Assembly: GCA_001797815.1 (NCBI GenBank)
Contig: MGQK01000028.1
Span: 17,036-27,806 of the forward strand
From: Deltaproteobacteria bacterium RBG_13_61_14
GTDB lineage: Bacteria; RBG-13-61-14
Length of the DNA stretch: 10,771 nucleotides
Reading direction: 5' to 3'
The stretch's first letter is position 1; each line of letters starts with the position of its first letter. Of the stretch, positions 1,686-9,493 are shown one piece after another. The notes beneath the pieces are model-generated. The model was given only the letters and a program-made list of their open reading frames with translations, was not told the origin of the DNA and did no database searches. Position numbers and translations under genes: made by a program.

Positions 1686-1768
1686 TTAACCACAAAGACA
1701 CAAGGGCACAAAGCTTTTAGACATTTTCAGCTTATCCTGGCTTCGTGTCTTGGTGTCTTTGTGTTAAG
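1686..1768. repeat. Inverted pair of short dispersed repeats forming an imperfect hairpin between hydE and folC
   Basis: The plus-strand element at 1686-1713 (TTAACCACAAAGACACAAGG...) recurs as its reverse complement at 1741-1768 (CTTCGTGTCTTGGTGTCTTT...). The two arms of about 28 nt pair with roughly four mismatches and one bulge around a 27-nt loop. On the leftward transcript the second arm is followed by ATTTTTCTTT (1676-1685), so the structure could act as an intrinsic terminator or 3' stabiliser for the hyd operon. The hydE stop codon lies in the loop, so the right arm is translated as the hydE C-terminus. The CACAAAGACACCAAGACAC unit resembles a dispersed repeat I remember from many bacterial genomes. 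Confidence 0.75.
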
Positions 1769-2812
1769 AACTTCCTCGCTTCTTCGACGGCCGCCCGGGC
1801 CGAGGCCCACGGTGCGGCCCAGGGCCTCGATCTGGTCCCACAAGCGACGATGAAACGCCTCCGTGCTCTCCCCGGTCCCCCCTTTTCCCGGATAAATCTC
1901 GTAAAGCGCCCGGTATTCCAAAGGCGTCAGGTCGGGCATGACCACGTTGGCCCCGCACAAAAGGCCCATCTCCCGCCCGCGCTCCGGGCTGAGGGTGGCC
2001 AACGCGGTGGTGCTCGGGAGATTGGTCTCCGGGCACAACAGCCGGGCCAGGGCCACCACCTTGCAGGTCATCTCTTCCGAGTTGGGCGCTTGCCGGGAGG
2101 CGGGAGCGAGGAACTTCTTCGGGTTCCGACCCAGCGGGGCGGCCGGATGCGGCAGGAAGGGGCCCACGCCGATCATGTCCAGGTCCAGCTCTTGAAAAAG
2201 TTCCAGGTCGCGGGCCAGGCTCGCATAAGTTTGTCCGGGAATCCCGACCATCACCCCGCTCCCGACCTCGTAACCCAACTCCCGGAGCTTCTTCAGAATC
2301 GCGAAGCGGTCCGAGCGCTGCCCGCGCACCGGCGGATGAATGCGGTCGTAGAGCGCCCGGTCCGAAGTCTCGAATTTGAGCAGGTAGCGGTCCGCCCCGG
2401 CTTCCCGCCAGGCCTGGAGGTCTGCTTCCGACCGCTCGCTCAGGCTGAGCGTCACCGCCAGCGCGGTGGCGGCCTTGATGCTCCGAATGATTTTGGCGAT
2501 CCACTCCCGGCTCATGCCCAAATCCTCGCCGGACTGGAGCACCACGGTGCCGTAGCCGTAGGCCACCGCCTGGCGCGCGCAAATCAGGATCTCCGCCTCG
2601 CTCATCCGGTAGCGGGTCAGGTTGCGGTTGCCGGATCGGATTCCGCAATAGGCGCAGTTGCGGTCGCACCCGTTGCCGATCTCGATCAGCCCGCGCAGGT
2701 GCACCGCGTCGCCGACCGTCTTTTGCCGCACCGCGTCCGCCTCTTGCCAGAGTTCGGCCAGCCGGGTCTCATCGTCCTCTTTCAACCATTTCAGGATGGT
2801 CCTGCGGTTCAT
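1727..2812 (-). CDS. hydE: [FeFe]-hydrogenase H-cluster radical SAM maturase HydE
   Basis: HydE is a radical SAM enzyme that acts on the organometallic product of HydG during assembly of the [2Fe] subcluster. The 361-aa protein has the SAM-cluster motif C49-DRN-C53-AY-C56 after LRGLIEIGNG, then YGTVVLQSGED (88-97), LLKFETSD (144-151), GSGVMVGIPGQT (184-195), MIGVGPFLPHP (213-223) and GANVVMPDLTP (287-297). No cysteine occurs after residue 286, so the auxiliary CX7CX2C cluster of Thermotoga HydE is absent. The last dozen residues (NTKTPRHEARIS) are encoded by an intergenic repeat and are probably a non-native extension; a core of about 345-350 aa fits the family better. The ATG at 2812 overlaps the hydF stop by 4 nt (ATGA), implying coupled translation. 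Identification is secure, strengthened by adjacent HydF and HydG. Confidence 0.95.
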   Translation of the reverse strand: MNRRTILKWLKEDDETRLAELWQEADAVRQKTVGDAVHLRGLIEIGNGCDRNCAYCGIRSGNRNLTRYRMSEAEILICARQAVAYGYGTVVLQSGEDLGMSREWIAKIIRSIKAATALAVTLSLSERSEADLQAWREAGADRYLLKFETSDRALYDRIHPPVRGQRSDRFAILKKLRELGYEVGSGVMVGIPGQTYASLARDLELFQELDLDMIGVGPFLPHPAAPLGRNPKKFLAPASRQAPNSEEMTCKVVALARLLCPETNLPSTTALATLSPERGREMGLLCGANVVMPDLTPLEYRALYEIYPGKGGTGESTEAFHRRLWDQIEALGRTVGLGPGGRRRSEEVLNTKTPRHEARIS

Positions 2813-4047
2813 GCCGGTTGCCTTTTTCCTTCCCGGCAAAGCTCGAGCGCCGCGGGAAACGGCTCCAGCGCCCGTTCCAGGATCCCGAGTGAATAGGCGA
2901 TGGTGAGCCCGTAGTTGGTGATCGGCACCCCCGCCCGCCGGCAGGCCAGGATCCGCGTCAGCATCTCCCGCCGGTTCCACATGCAGGCCCCGCAATGGAC
3001 GATCAACTGGTAAGGGGAAACGTCTTGGGGAAAGTCGTGGCCCTGGACGTGGACGAACTCGAGCTTGCCTCCGACATACTGGGTCAGCCAGCGGGGGATT
3101 TTCACCCGGCCGATGTCTTCGGCGATGGGGTGATGCGAGCAGGCTTCCGCGATCAGGACGGAATCGCCTTTTTTCAGCCGCTCGATGGCCAGGGTGCCCC
3201 GCACCTGTTCGACCAGGTCGCCCTTGTACCGGGCAAAGAGGATGGAGAAGGAGGTCAGCTTCACCTCCTGCGGCGTGTTGGCCGCCACTTTCAGGAACAC
3301 CTGGGAATCGGTCACCACCAGCTTGGGCGGCGCCTTCAGGCTTTCCAGCGCGTGGCAAAGCTCGCGCTCTTTCACCACCAGGCAGTAGGCGTCGTGGTCC
3401 AGGAGATCCCGGATGGACTGCACCTGGGGCACGATCAGCCGGCCCTTGGGCGCCTCCTTGTCAATCGGCACTACCAGCACCGCCAGTTCCCCCGGGCCGA
3501 CCAAATCCGAAAGGATGGTGGCGCTGTTGACAAAATCGTCCGGCGCACAGTCGAGCAGGGCCTGGCGGAAGTCCAGAATCCCCGCGCCCGAGACCGCGGC
3601 CGTTTTGACTACCCGAATTTTTTCGGCGGCCAGCCGCTCCAGGATCTGGGCCGAGGGCCGGCCCAGGTCGCTCTTGTTCATCACCGCGATGATCGGGATC
3701 TTGCGCTCCTTGAACTCGGCCAGGAACTGGTCCTCGAAATCACCCCATTGCCCGGCCTCGGTCACCAGGACGGCCAGCTCGGTCCGGTCCAGCACCTGCC
3801 GGGTCTTCTGCACCCGCAGTTCGCCGAGCGCGCCGGTGTCGTCAATCCCCGCGGTGTCTATGAACAGCACCGGCCCCAGCGGCAAAAGCTCCATGGGCTT
3901 CTCCACCGGGTCGGTGGTGGTCCCGGCCTGGTCCGAGACAATCGAGACCTGCTGCTGGGTGATGGCGTTGAGCAGGGACGACTTGCCCACGTTTCGCCGG
4001 CCGAAGATGCCGATGTGCAGGCGCAGACCCTTGGGCGCGGCTTCCAT
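2809..4047 (-). CDS. hydF: [FeFe]-hydrogenase H-cluster maturation GTPase HydF
   Basis: HydF is the scaffold that receives the [2Fe] precursor and delivers it to apo-HydA. The 412-aa protein has a GTPase domain with P-loop GRRNVGKS (16-23), the TTTD switch (43-46), DTAG (64-67) and NKSD (124-127), then the dimerisation region, then the FeS-binding domain with C303-S-H305 and H351-C352-GA-C355, i.e. CxHx45HCxxC. All key residues are present. I chose the ATG at 4047 rather than an in-frame upstream start at 4146 because a GGGAG Shine-Dalgarno (4056-4060) lies 8 nt before it and the protein then starts just before the conserved LHIGIFGRRNVGKS. The start is 4 nt after the aspA stop and the hydF stop overlaps hydE, so aspA, hydF and hydE look translationally linked. 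Confidence 0.96.
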   Translation of the reverse strand: MEAAPKGLRLHIGIFGRRNVGKSSLLNAITQQQVSIVSDQAGTTTDPVEKPMELLPLGPVLFIDTAGIDDTGALGELRVQKTRQVLDRTELAVLVTEAGQWGDFEDQFLAEFKERKIPIIAVMNKSDLGRPSAQILERLAAEKIRVVKTAAVSGAGILDFRQALLDCAPDDFVNSATILSDLVGPGELAVLVVPIDKEAPKGRLIVPQVQSIRDLLDHDAYCLVVKERELCHALESLKAPPKLVVTDSQVFLKVAANTPQEVKLTSFSILFARYKGDLVEQVRGTLAIERLKKGDSVLIAEACSHHPIAEDIGRVKIPRWLTQYVGGKLEFVHVQGHDFPQDVSPYQLIVHCGACMWNRREMLTRILACRRAGVPITNYGLTIAYSLGILERALEPFPAALELCREGKRQPA

Positions 4048-4051
4048 GAAT

Positions 4052-5461
4052 TCATCTCCCTTTCGGATCGGGCGAGCCCAGCCGGCAGACCGCTTCCGGG
4101 CTGGTCCATTCCGCGAACTGCTCGGCGCTGAGCCAGCCCTCGGCAATCGCGGTCTCCTTGATCGTCCGTCCGGTCTCCTTGGCCCGGGCGGCCAGGGCGC
4201 AGGCCCGCTCGTAGCCGAGCACGGGCACGAGCGCGGTCACCGCGGCGGTCGAGCTCTCCACCTGGCCGCGGCAGCGCGCCTCGTCGGCCTCGATCCCTTC
4301 CACGCAATGCCGGCGCAGGATCTCGCAGCTCGAGGCGAGCAGGTCCAGGCTTTCGAGCAGGCAATGGGCGATCAGCGGCAGGAAAGCATTGAGCTCGAGG
4401 TTGCCGGAGCCGGCGGCAACAGCCAAAGTCTGGTCATAGCCCATCACCAGCATGGCCGCCTGCGCGACCGCCTCCGGGATCACCGGGTTGACTTTGCCGG
4501 GCATGATCGAAGAGCCGGCCTGGCGAGCCGGCAGCCGGATTTCGCCCAGCCCGGCCTCGGGGCCGGAAGAAAGCAGCCGGAGGTCGTTCGAGACTTTGAG
4601 CAGCGACGCGGCGCAGGCCTTTAAGATGCCGGAGACCTCCACGAATACGTCCGCGTTCTGGGTGGCCTCGATCAGGTTCTCGGCCCGGGCCAAGCCGATG
4701 CCGGTAAGCTCGCGCAAAATATCCACCACCCGGAAAATGTAGGCGCGGGGCGCGGCCAGGCCGGTGCCGATGGCGGTGCCGCCCAGGTTCACCACCCGCA
4801 GCCGCTCCTCGCACTTGTAAACCCGCCAGCGGTCGCGGTTGAAGGCTTCTGCATAAGCGCCCATCTCCCGGCCCAGGGTCGTGAGCACCGCGTCCTGCAT
4901 CTCGGTGCGGCCGACCTTGACCACGTGGGCGAACTGTTTCTCCTTGGCCTGGAACGCCTCCTGCAACCCCACCAGCCGCTCCTCCAAGCGGCGCACCAGG
5001 TGAATCGCCGCCAGCTTGAGCGCGGTCGGATAAGTGTCATTGGTGGACTGGTGCAGGTTCAAGTGGTCGAGCGGCGAGAGCACCTGGTAGCGGCCCGGTT
5101 TCTCATTTAGGAGCGCGAGCGCCCGGTTGGCCAGCACCTCGTTCACGTTCAGGTTGGTCGAGGTCCCGGCCCCGCCCTGCAACGCGTCCACCAGGATGTG
5201 AGAGTCGAGCCGGCCCTCCCTCATCTCGGCGCAGGCGGCGAAGATCGCCTCGGCCTTGGCCTTGTCCAGGTATCCCAGCTCGAAATTGGCCCGGGCGCAG
5301 GCCAGCTTCACCGCGCCGTAGGCGTGGATCAGGGCCGGGTGCACCGGCCGGCGGGCGAGGGGGAAGTTTTCGAGGGCGCGGGCGGTGTGGATGCCGTAAA
5401 GGGCCTCGGCCGGAAGCTCGCGCTCGCCCAGGAGGTCGCGCTCTTGCCGAAAGGCGCTCAT
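4052..5461 (-). CDS. aspA: Aspartate ammonia-lyase (aspartase)
   Basis: This enzyme of the aspartase/fumarase superfamily reversibly converts aspartate to fumarate and ammonia; the family works as a cytosolic homotetramer. The 469-aa length is typical. Motifs: an aspartase-like N-terminus ERDLLGERELPAEALYGIHT (7-26), GGAGTSTNLNVNEV (96-109), HQSTNDTYPT (137-146), GRTEMQDA (184-191) and the flexible catalytic loop GSSIMPGKVNPVIPE (316-330) with the probable catalytic base S318. The NPVIPE ending and the N-terminus favour aspartase over class II fumarase, but substrate is inferred. The ATG overlaps the ferredoxin stop by 4 nt (ATGA), and hydF follows after 4 nt. Its position among maturases suggests it supplies ammonia for the dithiomethylamine ligand of the H-cluster, or links to fumarate metabolism. 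Confidence 0.92.
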   Translation of the reverse strand: MSAFRQERDLLGERELPAEALYGIHTARALENFPLARRPVHPALIHAYGAVKLACARANFELGYLDKAKAEAIFAACAEMREGRLDSHILVDALQGGAGTSTNLNVNEVLANRALALLNEKPGRYQVLSPLDHLNLHQSTNDTYPTALKLAAIHLVRRLEERLVGLQEAFQAKEKQFAHVVKVGRTEMQDAVLTTLGREMGAYAEAFNRDRWRVYKCEERLRVVNLGGTAIGTGLAAPRAYIFRVVDILRELTGIGLARAENLIEATQNADVFVEVSGILKACAASLLKVSNDLRLLSSGPEAGLGEIRLPARQAGSSIMPGKVNPVIPEAVAQAAMLVMGYDQTLAVAAGSGNLELNAFLPLIAHCLLESLDLLASSCEILRRHCVEGIEADEARCRGQVESSTAAVTALVPVLGYERACALAARAKETGRTIKETAIAEGWLSAEQFAEWTSPEAVCRLGSPDPKGR

Positions 5462-5709
5462 GGGGCCGCCACCGGATGGCCTTGGGCCGGCAGTTGCTCG
5501 ACCTCGGCGATCAAGCTTTTGACTTTTTTAGCTTGCTGGGAGCAGACGCGGACGCAGTTGCCGCAGCCGAGGCACCGCTCCGGGATCACCTCCGCCTGGC
5601 CGGCGGAGATGCGGATGGCCTTGGCCGGGCAGTCGCGCACGCAGGTGGAGCAGACGCGGCAGCGTTCCTTGATGGTCGAGACCAGCGGCGTTGGCACCAC
5701 ATGGTTCAT
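5458..5709 (-). CDS. Dicluster [4Fe-4S] ferredoxin-like protein, resembling the N-terminus of sensory [FeFe]-hydrogenases
   Basis: The 83-aa protein has two CxxCxxCxxxC sets: C17-RVC20-STC23-VRDC27-P and C46-LGC49-GNC52-VRVC56-S, with the AKAIRI and AEVIPERC segments between them. It can hold two [4Fe-4S] clusters and could carry electrons, for example to HydE/HydG. The second set lacks the usual Pro after the last Cys (C-S-QQAKK). From VRVCSQQAKKVKSLIAEVE onward it looks like the linker that leads into the hydrogenase-like domain of HydS-type sensors, but it stops at HPVAAP. It starts 2 nt after the hydG stop with no clear Shine-Dalgarno, so translation is probably coupled, and its TGA overlaps the aspA ATG. 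Cluster binding is secure; role is unknown. Confidence 0.85.
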   Translation of the reverse strand: MNHVVPTPLVSTIKERCRVCSTCVRDCPAKAIRISAGQAEVIPERCLGCGNCVRVCSQQAKKVKSLIAEVEQLPAQGHPVAAP

Positions 5710-5711
5710 AT

Positions 5712-7124
5712 TTAAAAATACAGATCGCGCTCTCCTTGCTCGATCCGGCTCAGGCGGCTCTCGGTTTCCTGCCGCCGGGACGCCTGCGGGATATCCTCCA
5801 GGTGCCGGGGCAGCGCCGCCCTTCCCGCGGCGCGAGTCTCTGGACTCGCATAGTCTTGCAGATATTCCTTAAAAGTCAAAATCGCATTGGGCAGGCAGAA
5901 ACTCTTGATCAGGCCGGGCTTGGCCAGGTCCATGAAGTCCCGGCCGGTGCGGCCCAGGCGGTAACAGGCGGTGCAGAAAGAGGGGACGTAGCCGAGCGGC
6001 AGCAGATCGTGAATGACTTCGTCCAGGCTGCGGTGGTCGCCCAACTGGAACTGGGCGGTGGCCGGCTCGCCTTCCCGGTACCCGCCCGGGCTGGTGCGGG
6101 AGCCGGCGCTGATCTGGGACACGCCCAGGGCGAAGGTCAGGGCGCGCATCTTGGGCGTCTCCCGGGTGGTCATGATGAGGCCGGTGTAGGGGACGGCGAG
6201 GCGGAGGATGGCCACGATTTTCTTGAAGTCCTCATCCGCGACCGGGTAGGGCGGATGGGCGGCCAGCTCGGAACCCTCGGCCGGCTCCAGCCGGGGCACG
6301 CTGATGGTGTGCGGGCCCATGCCATACACGCTTTCCAGGTGGCGGACGTGCTGGAGCAGCGCCAGGATCTCGTAGCGGAAATCGTAAAGCCCGAAGAGCA
6401 CGCCCACGCCCACGTCATTGATGCCGGCCTCAAAGGCTCTCCCGACGGCGGTCAAGCGCCAGTTGTAGTCGGCCTTGGGCCCGCTCAGGTGCAGTTTCTG
6501 ATAGGTGGGCTGGTGGTAGATCTCCTGGAAGAGCTGATAGGTCCCGATCTTGCAGGCGTGCAGGTCGCGGAACTGCTCCACGCTCAGGGGCGCGATGTTG
6601 ACGTTCACCCGCCGGATCTCGCCGTGGCCCTCCTTGGTCGCATACACCGTGGCGATGGACTTGAAGATGTAATCCAGCCCCTCGTTCGGATAAGCCTCGC
6701 CGGCCACCAGCAACAGCCGCTTCTGGCCGGTGCGGATCAAATGCAGCACCTCGTCGGCAATTTCCTCCTGGGTCAGGGCCCGGCGCTTGAGCAAAGGATT
6801 GCCCACCCGGAAGGCGCAGTAGAGGCAATTGTTCTGGCAGAGGTTGCTGATGTAGAGCGGGGCGAACAGCACCAGCCGCTTGCCGTAGATCGCCTCCTTG
6901 ACCTCGGCCGCGGTATGAAACATCTCCTCCAACACCGCCGGGTCCTCACTCTGGAGCAGGACCGCGACCTCGGCCAGGTCCAGACCTTTCAGCTCGCGGG
7001 CCTTGGCGATCACCGCCCGGGCCTGATCCGGGCCGGATTCGGCCCCGGCCGCCAGATGGCCCTGGATCGCGGTATCGTCAATGAAATGCGGGGACTCCAC
7101 TTTTTTGCGCGCGGCATTAGGCAT
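5712..7124 (-). CDS. hydG: [FeFe]-hydrogenase H-cluster radical SAM maturase HydG (C-terminal module of the long frame, with its own start)
   Basis: HydG cleaves tyrosine to p-cresol plus the CO and CN- ligands and builds an Fe(CO)2(CN)-cysteine synthon. From the internal ATG the product is 470 aa, the normal HydG size. Motifs: radical SAM C96-QNN-C100-LY-C103 within LFAPLYISNLCQNNCLYC, KRLLLVAGE (135-143), NVNIAPLS (174-181), GVGVLFGLYDFRYE (238-251), ISAGSRTSPGGY (338-349), and the C-terminal auxiliary-cluster motif C384-TA-C387-x22-C410. All expected cluster ligands are present. AAGGAG (7133-7138) lies 8 nt before the ATG at 7124, so independent initiation is likely. However, no stop separates it from the sensor kinase upstream, so a kinase-HydG fusion is also possible. 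The stop is 2 nt before the ferredoxin start. HydG identity is secure; the N-terminal boundary is the open question. Confidence 0.93.
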   Translation of the reverse strand: MPNAARKKVESPHFIDDTAIQGHLAAGAESGPDQARAVIAKARELKGLDLAEVAVLLQSEDPAVLEEMFHTAAEVKEAIYGKRLVLFAPLYISNLCQNNCLYCAFRVGNPLLKRRALTQEEIADEVLHLIRTGQKRLLLVAGEAYPNEGLDYIFKSIATVYATKEGHGEIRRVNVNIAPLSVEQFRDLHACKIGTYQLFQEIYHQPTYQKLHLSGPKADYNWRLTAVGRAFEAGINDVGVGVLFGLYDFRYEILALLQHVRHLESVYGMGPHTISVPRLEPAEGSELAAHPPYPVADEDFKKIVAILRLAVPYTGLIMTTRETPKMRALTFALGVSQISAGSRTSPGGYREGEPATAQFQLGDHRSLDEVIHDLLPLGYVPSFCTACYRLGRTGRDFMDLAKPGLIKSFCLPNAILTFKEYLQDYASPETRAAGRAALPRHLEDIPQASRRQETESRLSRIEQGERDLYF

Positions 7125-9026
7125 GGGAATCACTCCTTGTCCAATGGGAAGGTGAACGACAAAAATGGTTCCGAGCTTCTCTTCGCTCTCGACCAGGATC
7201 CGGCCGGCGTGCTGGTTCACGACCTCCTTGACAATGGCCAGCCCCAGGCCGGTGCCGGTCTCTTCCACCGCCCGGGCGTTCTCGCCCCGGTAAAATTCGG
7301 TGAACAACCGGGAGCGGTCGGCCTGGGGGATGCCGATGCCGTTGTCGCTGACCTCGATCCGGACGTCATGGTCGGTGCCCAGGGAAAAGGCCACGCCCAC
7401 CCGTCCGCCCTCGGGCGTGTATTTGATGGCGTTGCTGATCAGGTTTTCCAGCATCTGCTCGATCATGTCCCGGTCGCCCCGGATCTCGGGCAAGCCCTCG
7501 GCCACGGTTACCGAGAAGTTCAGTCTCTTGTCCGCCGCCTCGTCCTGAAAGGTCCGCTGGATGCGGCCGGCGAGCGTGGCCAGGTCCACCTCGCTATAGT
7601 TCAAGCGGCGCTTTTCGCCCCGGCTCTGGGCCAGGTTGAGGATCTCATTGATCAGGGTGATCATGGAGCGGGCGCGGCGGTCGATCCGGCGCAGGTGTTC
7701 CCGCTGGGCTTCGTTCAGCTCGCCGAGATAACCGTCCCGGACCACTTCCAGGATGCTGAGGGTGGCGGCCAGCGGCGCCCGCAGGTTGTGGGCCACCCGC
7801 ATCATGAACCAGGAACGGTCGCGGACCAGGTTCTCGACGGCTTCGTAGGCCCGGGCATTGTCCAGGGCGATCGCCACCAGTCCGGCGGCCAGGCGGAAGA
7901 AGTCCACCTCGGGCTCGCCGAACCGCTCCGGCCGGACGCAGTAGGCGCCGAGGATCCCGATCACCCGCTTCTCCACGGTCAGGGGCACGAACAGGACCGA
8001 CTTGAGCCCGGCCGTGACCAGCTCCTCGCCGAATTGGAACATCTCCCGCTCGGTCAGGTGCCCGGTCACAAAGGGCTCGCCCTCGATGATCCGCCGGTTG
8101 AGCGGGCTCTTCTCCACCTCCACCACTTTCCCCTTGAGGAACTCGGGAGGCAGGCCGTGGACCGCGGCGTAGCGCAGTTGCTTGCCGTCCTGGGAAAGCA
8201 GCTTGACCGAGATGCCGGCCACCTCCATGACCGCGGCCAGCTCCGAGGTGACGATGCGCAGCACCTGGTCCAGCCGCTTCTCGGAGCCGATGGCCTGGAC
8301 CATGGCGTAGAGGCTGTGGAGCTGGGAATTGAGCGTGGTCACCGCCTCGGAGAGGTCCGCCAGGTCCAAGATGCGCTTGCGGAGCATGCGCATGATGGCG
8401 GTGGTGGAGAAGGCGGTGATGAAGACCGAGGCGGCAAAGAAGCTCAGCTCCACCGTGACGTGGAAGGGCTGGTTGGCCAGGTTGATGGCCTGGCCGCGGA
8501 ACCCGAGGGCGTGGTGCGGGATCCAGCCCAGGTATTCCGCGGCCGCGATCAGGCCCATCCCGGCCGCGACCAGGCCGGCGAAGCCGTAGGCGGAGCGGGA
8601 AGGAAGCAGGATCGAAGCGAAGATGATGTGAAAGATGAAAAAGAAGATGAAAGGGCTGGCGGCGCCGCCGGTGAAGTGGATGAGGAGGAACATGGAGGCA
8701 TAGTCGAGCCCCACTTGCCAATAGGTGAACCGTCGCAGGAACTCGGTCTGGCCGGCGGGGTCTGCGGCGATCCGGCGGCTCTTAAGGTGGAAGAGGATGT
8801 TGTAGGCGAGGATGAAAAGGGCGACCAGGAACAGGGCCGGGGCCGCGAACTGGACTCCGATCAACCAGGCCACCCCGGTCCCGGCCGCGATGCTGGGGGG
8901 CACCCACCAGCGGAGCCGCACGAACCAGAGGGTCCGGTCCTTGAGCTCGCCCAGAATAATCCGTTTCCGGCGGTGGATTTCTTCGGGCAGGTTCCGGAGC
9001 CCGGCATTCTTGGCTGCTTGAGTCAT
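5712..9026 (-). CDS. Membrane sensor histidine kinase in continuous frame with HydG (kinase module 7125-9026)
   Basis: One open frame of 1104 aa. Residues 1-634 are a sensor kinase: about six hydrophobic segments (near 42-60, 62-80, 104-120, 125-142, 146-166, 190-213; includes LLIHFTGGAASPF), a GAF-like domain (about 250-395), a HisKA dimerisation helix with H413 in VAHNLRAPL, and a HATPase_c domain with N532 (ENLISNAIKYTP), G1 VSDNGIGIP (559-567), F-box RLFTEFYRG and G2 TGTGLGLAIVKE (590-601), closing with GTIFVVHLPI. Residues 635-1104 are complete HydG. The kinase should autophosphorylate at the inner membrane and pass phosphate to the receiver encoded just upstream. The ATG at 9026 has GGAG 6 nt upstream and lies 27 nt after the receiver stop. 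The join depends on one base in a CCC run (7146-7148), so it may be two genes in vivo. The sensed signal is unknown. Confidence 0.8.
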   Translation of the reverse strand: MTQAAKNAGLRNLPEEIHRRKRIILGELKDRTLWFVRLRWWVPPSIAAGTGVAWLIGVQFAAPALFLVALFILAYNILFHLKSRRIAADPAGQTEFLRRFTYWQVGLDYASMFLLIHFTGGAASPFIFFFIFHIIFASILLPSRSAYGFAGLVAAGMGLIAAAEYLGWIPHHALGFRGQAINLANQPFHVTVELSFFAASVFITAFSTTAIMRMLRKRILDLADLSEAVTTLNSQLHSLYAMVQAIGSEKRLDQVLRIVTSELAAVMEVAGISVKLLSQDGKQLRYAAVHGLPPEFLKGKVVEVEKSPLNRRIIEGEPFVTGHLTEREMFQFGEELVTAGLKSVLFVPLTVEKRVIGILGAYCVRPERFGEPEVDFFRLAAGLVAIALDNARAYEAVENLVRDRSWFMMRVAHNLRAPLAATLSILEVVRDGYLGELNEAQREHLRRIDRRARSMITLINEILNLAQSRGEKRRLNYSEVDLATLAGRIQRTFQDEAADKRLNFSVTVAEGLPEIRGDRDMIEQMLENLISNAIKYTPEGGRVGVAFSLGTDHDVRIEVSDNGIGIPQADRSRLFTEFYRGENARAVEETGTGLGLAIVKEVVNQHAGRILVESEEKLGTIFVVHLPIGQGVIPMPNAARKKVESPHFIDDTAIQGHLAAGAESGPDQARAVIAKARELKGLDLAEVAVLLQSEDPAVLEEMFHTAAEVKEAIYGKRLVLFAPLYISNLCQNNCLYCAFRVGNPLLKRRALTQEEIADEVLHLIRTGQKRLLLVAGEAYPNEGLDYIFKSIATVYATKEGHGEIRRVNVNIAPLSVEQFRDLHACKIGTYQLFQEIYHQPTYQKLHLSGPKADYNWRLTAVGRAFEAGINDVGVGVLFGLYDFRYEILALLQHVRHLESVYGMGPHTISVPRLEPAEGSELAAHPPYPVADEDFKKIVAILRLAVPYTGLIMTTRETPKMRALTFALGVSQISAGSRTSPGGYREGEPATAQFQLGDHRSLDEVIHDLLPLGYVPSFCTACYRLGRTGRDFMDLAKPGLIKSFCLPNAILTFKEYLQDYASPETRAAGRAALPRHLEDIPQASRRQETESRLSRIEQGERDLYF
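7125..7148 (-). promoter_or_regulatory. Kinase/HydG junction: internal Shine-Dalgarno, out-of-frame TGA and CCC run
   Basis: On the minus strand this reads CCCATTGGACAAGGAG (7148-7133) followed by TGATTCCC before the ATG at 7124. AAGGAG at 7133-7138 is a near-perfect Shine-Dalgarno with 8-nt spacing to that ATG. In the fused frame the codons give PIGQGVIP-M. In the +1 frame they give LDKE followed by TGA (7130-7132), 5 nt before the HydG ATG, which is the usual layout of two coupled genes. Loss of one C from the CCC (GGG on the plus strand, 7146-7148) would place that TGA in the kinase frame. Confidence 0.8.
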
Positions 9027-9053: not shown

Positions 9054-9458
9054 CTAGCCTCCGGCCAGGATACCCTCGATCTTGGCCAACAGCTTTTTGG
9101 TGTCCACCGGCTTTTCGAACAGCCACTTGGCCGGCCATTCCTCGCCCAGGATGTGCTGGAACTTGTCCGGGCCTTCCACGCGGACCTTCTCCAAAAAGCT
9201 GGTCAAAATGACGATGGGCAGGTTTTTGAACTCCGGCTTTTGCTTGAGTTCGAAAGCCAGGTCAAAGCCCTCGGTGTCGGTGGCCATCATGATGTCAAGG
9301 ATCATGAGGTCGGGCACCTCCGCCTGCAACGCGGCCACGGCTTCGCGGCCATTGCCCGCGGTCTTGACCAGATAACCCTTGCTCTCCAGGATGATCCGGA
9401 GCGAGTCGCGGATGTCCCGGTCGTCATCCACCAGGAGAATCGTCCTTTTGTTCGCCAT
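9054..9458 (-). CDS. Single-domain response regulator (receiver only)
   Basis: A 134-aa CheY-like receiver without an output domain. It has the acidic pocket D11-D12-D13 (LLVDDDRD), the phosphoacceptor D55 (PDLMILDIMM), T86 (VILTS) and K116 (FEKPVD). T86 and K116 are 30 residues apart, about eight more than in CheY, because of an insertion running through GPDKFQHILGEEWPAKW. With no DNA-binding or enzymatic domain it probably works by protein-protein contact or in a phosphorelay. The ATG at 9458 is chosen over the in-frame ATG at 9488 because a strong AGGGAGG (9464-9470) ends 5 nt upstream and the product then begins MANKRTILLVDDD. It lies 35 nt after the hydrogenase stop and 27 nt before the kinase start, so it is the obvious partner of that kinase. 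Confidence 0.93.
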   Translation of the reverse strand: MANKRTILLVDDDRDIRDSLRIILESKGYLVKTAGNGREAVAALQAEVPDLMILDIMMATDTEGFDLAFELKQKPEFKNLPIVILTSFLEKVRVEGPDKFQHILGEEWPAKWLFEKPVDTKKLLAKIEGILAGG

Positions 9459-9493
9459 GCTAACCTCCCTTTTCACGGCCGAAGCCATGGTGG

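Follow-up and report, generated by a model that had tools for sequence, protein, structure and literature searches.

The carbon monoxide and the cyanide at the active site of iron-iron hydrogenases are made from tyrosine by HydG, which is known as a free protein. In the stretch of 10,771 nucleotides from Deltaproteobacteria bacterium RBG_13_61_14 analysed here (the window), however, HydG continues the frame of a complete membrane histidine kinase. The question hence arises whether the two proteins are truly joined and what such a union would mean for hydrogenase maturation.

The fused reading frame

All features of the window described here lie on the minus strand. From the ATG at 9026 to the stop codon at 5714-5712, 1,104 codons run without interruption (stop-to-stop from 9053), with residues 1-634 forming the kinase (7125..9026) and residues 635-1104 forming HydG (5712..7124). 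Pfam profiles detect GAF (residues 251-389), HisKA (407-469), HATPase_c (517-628), Radical_SAM (725-881) and BATS (909-1013) on this frame, all over their cut-offs. Continuous frame and profiles thus agree with the sequence-only reading, which had described a complete kinase of 634 amino acids in frame with a complete HydG of 470 amino acids carrying all cluster ligands, though without naming the strand. A plus-strand search gave antisense translations only and was set aside.

The junction (7077..7142), delimited by sequence comparison and a structure model, is a linker of about 20 amino acids without predicted structure that leads from the kinase core to the HydG core, with the peptide GQGVIPMPNAAR. 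The frames on either side of it are set by conserved residues, namely GTIFVVHLPI before and FIDD...ELKGL after, and the longest homopolymer within it is at most three bases. A single substitution in the CAA codon at 7139-7137 would create a TAA stop, right at the Shine-Dalgarno sequence of hydG. Frame damage is not a general property of this contig, as all genes other than the fused frame are intact. In the predicted structure the linker is disordered (pLDDT < 50 at residues 631-647), and as the mean pLDDT of the full-fusion prediction is only 65, we claim no inter-domain contacts.

The HydG part

Profile, motifs and alignment all identify the C-terminal part, which has its own ATG at 7124-7122, as HydG. 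It scores 529.6 against the NCBIfam HydG equivalog TIGR03955 (cut-off 312.15), covering profile positions 6-470 of 470, and carries the radical-SAM motif CX3CX2C at residue 96 and the C-terminal auxiliary-cluster motif CX2CX22C at residue 384. Its best match among solved structures is PDB 4wcx (E 3e-152), HydG of T. italicus, with which it shares a full-length match, the six cluster cysteines, the near-invariant residues and an operon with hydA, hydE and hydF. The near-invariant set comprises 74 alignment columns that are at least 95% identical over 76 HydG sequences; not one of these residues is changed in the window.

The genome of the window encodes a second HydG-like protein on contig C107 (L036 4403-5827), which is 47% identical, forms a long branch among the HydG sequences of the tree and has no other recognised hyd gene nearby.

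The sensor kinase and its response regulator

According to profiles, motifs and the model, the kinase part consists of six transmembrane helices, a GAF domain, HisKA and HATPase_c. The six-helix region (8367..8903) resembles the PilS-type 6TM domain, a match that is sub-threshold in the window and over the cut-off in relatives, and a low-confidence structure model likewise places six helices before the GAF domain (7860..8276; Pfam). HisKA (7620..7808), with the phospho-acceptor motif AHNLRAP, and HATPase_c (7143..7478) are both supported by Pfam and alignment, and the H, N, G1 and G2 boxes are all there.

Six transmembrane helices and a cytosolic kinase core are also found in RegB and in PilS 6TM kinases, from which the window kinase differs by the intervening GAF domain and the HydG C-terminus. 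In RegB, the motif GGXXNPF binds quinone (PMC8191878). The window kinase has GGAASPF, and all eight kinases of this type carry GGxxSP[FL], with S where RegB has N; furthermore, a search of the kinase alignment for a conserved redox-box cysteine returned no invariant Cys. Due to these two deviations, quinone sensing by kinases of this type is only a lead. That the GAF domain binds a metal or heme was considered and dropped, as its alignment holds no conserved Cys or His.

Directly upstream, a receiver-only response regulator is encoded (ORF limits 9054..9488; likely start 9458), and a receiver-only candidate cognate regulator is equally found in those relatives whose contigs extend that far. 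As no output domain is attached to it, it would presumably need a partner protein to take effect.

The operon

The order of transcription in the window is hydA, the receiver-only regulator, the kinase-HydG frame, a 2[4Fe-4S] ferredoxin-like protein (5458..5709), the aspartate ammonia-lyase gene aspA (4052..5461), hydF (2809..4053; TIGR03918), hydE (1727..2812) and then folC. HydA, an [FeFe] hydrogenase of the NADH-dependent group A6 type, is cut by the contig end (9494..10771). In relatives with more upstream sequence, hydC and a hydB with a fused GltD-like domain precede hydA, and their HydA passes the group A6 cut-off (905 vs 765). From this gene content and these scores, the operon is that of an electron-bifurcating type [FeFe] hydrogenase together with its maturases. 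This fused HydB, which is NuoF-like and carries a GltD-like FAD/NAD(P) domain, was seen at L042 589-3777 and L039 693-3746 and resembles a bifurcating hydrogenase subtype described in PMC11406978. In the hyd operon of PMC11736057, as here, aspA adjoins hyd maturase genes, and the role proposed for it is to provide ammonium for the dithiomethylamine bridge; the main text of that paper, when searched, mentions neither a kinase nor a fusion.

The kinase was used to scan the contigs of GTDB 220, and together with whole-genome searches (1,387 genomes) this yielded eight loci of uncultured bacteria with the conserved order hydCBA, receiver-only regulator, kinase, hydG, with or without ferredoxin and aspA, hydF and hydE. 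Kinase and hydG are adjacent in all eight, and as far as the contigs permit, the regulator and hydA lie upstream and hydF/hydE or aspA downstream, with one exception, a copy in Abyssobacteria SURF_17 (contig C6), downstream of which hydE and hydF were sought and none was found. A tight link between kinase and HydG at the level of the operon is thereby supported, irrespective of whether the two are fused.

Several further arrangements were observed. An FrhB/FdhB-like protein follows hydE at L042 11842-12990, and at L121 and L122 one response regulator is encoded immediately before hydG and a second one after hydE. In G064, the HydG beside a kinase of the same type (L067 3365-4828) has an altered C-terminal cluster motif, reading CTAGYRC... 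in place of CTACYR.... At L074, L082, L102 and L127, unrelated or distant histidine kinases are encoded as separate genes just upstream of hydG, so that kinase-hydG adjacency extends beyond the family of the window kinase.

Fused and separate loci

Kinase and hydG are fused at three of the eight loci and separate at the other five. Besides the window, the fused loci are that of the Syntrophaceae MAG L.E.D.11_1 (G062 contig C109, L042), which matches residues 1-1104 without a stop, and the SURF_17 copy on contig C6 (G061, L039), with 1,115 codons; the linker measures 19-20 amino acids in all three. SURF_17 carries a separate copy as well, on contig C124, where the genes overlap by ATGA as they do in G026; in G060 the overlap is 26 bases, in G064 it is short, and in G063 a TAA and a short gap intervene. 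No more fused loci were found in 395 genomes of the phylum of G062 and 47 of that of G065. Other long open frames around hydG, such as one of 830 amino acids at L016, were rejected as fusions, the upstream gene being in a different frame.

The expectation that the same fusion should exist in independent genomes was hence confirmed in two others, from different phyla, and the fusion can be considered real. It is nevertheless sporadic, since five relatives keep kinase and hydG apart, an arrangement that the sequence-only reading had named as evidence against the fusion. The kinase and HydG trees imply three changes of the fused state, at least two of them forced by supported branches, and they place G062 together with the unfused G063, which is also from the Syntrophaceae. 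Because the trees separate the fused loci in this way, the fusion, as read from these sequences, either had two or more origins or was lost on repeated occasions, and repeated fusion is the simpler assumption compared with the repeated splitting of one ancient fusion, as so little change is needed.

Other adjacent gene pairs of the operon are fused in 0 of 31 cases, as compared with 3 of 8 kinase-hydG pairs (Fisher p 0.006). As the window was chosen for being fused, a count that omits it is fairer, and gives 2/7 vs 0/25 (p ~0.04 by hand). This clustering suggests that fusion is favoured at the kinase-hydG junction, or at least more tolerated there than elsewhere. The independent fused loci and the absence of fusion at the 31 other pairs also make an assembly error an unlikely source of the fused frame.

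Translation signals and the SURF_17 copy

Within the fused frame of the window, a Shine-Dalgarno-like sequence, ACAAGGAGT (7132..7140), stands 7 nt ahead of the hydG ATG. At -8.0 kcal/mol it is stronger than that of the kinase start (-6.6) and equalled at only 2 of 49 internal ATGs. The hydG of G062 likewise starts with ATG, preceded at a spacing of 5 by a Shine-Dalgarno sequence of -11.4 kcal/mol. As both loci retain these signals, they probably yield free HydG besides the fusion.

Only the fused SURF_17 copy has no independent HydG start: from its kinase core to the FIDE motif, none of the possible in-frame start codons (ATG, GTG, TTG) was found together with a usable Shine-Dalgarno sequence, and the first plausible start, a GTG at 3502 of the L057 reverse complement, lies within the conserved region. 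With no usable start before this conserved motif, it looks like an obligate fusion. Its HydG also stands out among the 76 sequences, with 24 of the 74 near-invariant residues changed, as compared with 0-4 in the 75 others (none in G062). The changes include Y102D, the aromatic residue of CX3CX2C, as well as H272R, S275G and P277F in GPHTISVPRL. The six cysteines and the open frame are retained, and the H-cluster motifs of the hydrogenase at this locus are intact. We read this HydG as being under changed, not absent, constraint, and the retention of all six cysteines alongside the 24 changes suggests a new, perhaps regulatory, role.

Discussion

In our view, the locus probably reflects a real and recent in-frame fusion of neighbouring operon genes with dual products, in which kinase and receiver-only partner tune the hydrogenase. 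The kinase stop would have been lost directly before hydG, for which a single base change is enough, and one mRNA would then give rise to two products, a fusion of about 120 kDa and, by internal initiation, a soluble HydG of about 52 kDa. The larger product would be a membrane kinase carrying HydG on a flexible linker of about 20 residues; HydG would make the Fe(CO)2CN unit as HydG ordinarily does, and kinase and regulator would adjust the hydrogenase system to a signal from the membrane, perhaps the redox state of quinone. The fusion may bring part of the HydG near the kinase, and we propose that independent folding of the two cytosolic domains makes it tolerable. Judging from its start sites, the third fused locus, with no usable internal start, means that dual products cannot account for the kinase-HydG family as a whole.

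Alternatively, the fusion itself could be selected, either because the kinase places HydG at the membrane or because the substrate or cluster state of HydG feeds back on the kinase, with tyrosine, SAM, CO or the auxiliary cluster as candidate signals and the receiver-only regulator as the proposed output. Three fused loci in three lineages, the restriction of fusion to this one junction, the like linker lengths and the apparently obligate SURF_17 copy speak for such selection, but five relatives with the same operon do without the fusion and two of the three fused genes keep complete translation signals for hydG. Moreover, the HydG of the obligate copy is eroded, which argues for a changed role and not for anchored CO/CN synthesis. 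We therefore regard selection for the fusion as rather unlikely, and membrane anchoring of CO/CN synthesis and its coupling to the kinase, both envisaged from the sequence alone, are weakened by the ribosome-binding site and ATG that HydG keeps at two of the fused loci, the window and the Syntrophaceae MAG. Doubtful, too, is the more far-reaching idea of a new sensor class, in which a maturase or maturase-derived domain would report H-cluster assembly to a histidine kinase, responding to tyrosine, SAM, CO or cluster status; the SURF_17 HydG would then be purely regulatory, no longer catalytic and still binding two Fe-S clusters.

Two further accounts have little to recommend them over the loss of a stop with dual products. 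One wrong base in a metagenome-assembled genome could have erased the kinase stop, and indeed the window stems from a 132-contig assembly and TAA in place of CAA at 7139 would stop the kinase immediately ahead of the Shine-Dalgarno sequence of hydG; yet the same spot would have to be hit in several assemblies, given the independently fused L042 and L039, and the window has intact genes elsewhere and a junction free of homopolymers, so that we consider such an error very improbable. The stop might also have been lost neutrally, leaving a kinase with a passive, possibly degraded HydG tail and HydG made solely from its own start. The strong internal start signals and the sporadic distribution would fit, but the 1,115-codon frame of SURF_17 stays open with no other good HydG start, and we give neutral loss only a slim chance.

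Kinase and HydG are each ordinary members of their families. A published kinase-HydG fusion was sought in the open-access literature and none was found, so that, within the reach of this search, their combination is new, as had been supposed. A known earlier case of a fused maturase is the algal HydEF, which unites two maturases, whereas here a maturase is united with a signalling protein. Hydrogen-enzyme chemistry and signalling domains are also joined in the Group C sensory [FeFe] hydrogenases (PAS/His-kinase; BfuT), whose genes similarly adjoin those of bifurcating hydrogenases (PMC11406978), although there it is the hydrogenase domain itself that is joined and not a maturase. The genome of the window encodes a protein of this sensory kind on contig C21 (L035 858-2909; ferredoxin, [FeFe] hydrogenase domain, HisKA and HATPase), followed by a response regulator, a REC-kinase and a second 6TM-GAF kinase (5021-6967) that is 63% identical to that of the window.

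Overall, there is a modest chance that the kinase-HydG fusion is a true sensor-maturase. The separate genes, the fusions that keep a HydG start and the obligate fusion with an altered HydG provide natural material in three states. Little is known about how cells match H-cluster assembly to the demand of the hydrogenase, and a kinase and receiver-only regulator encoded between hydA and hydG, and fused to HydG in several lineages, represent a concrete candidate for such a control link.
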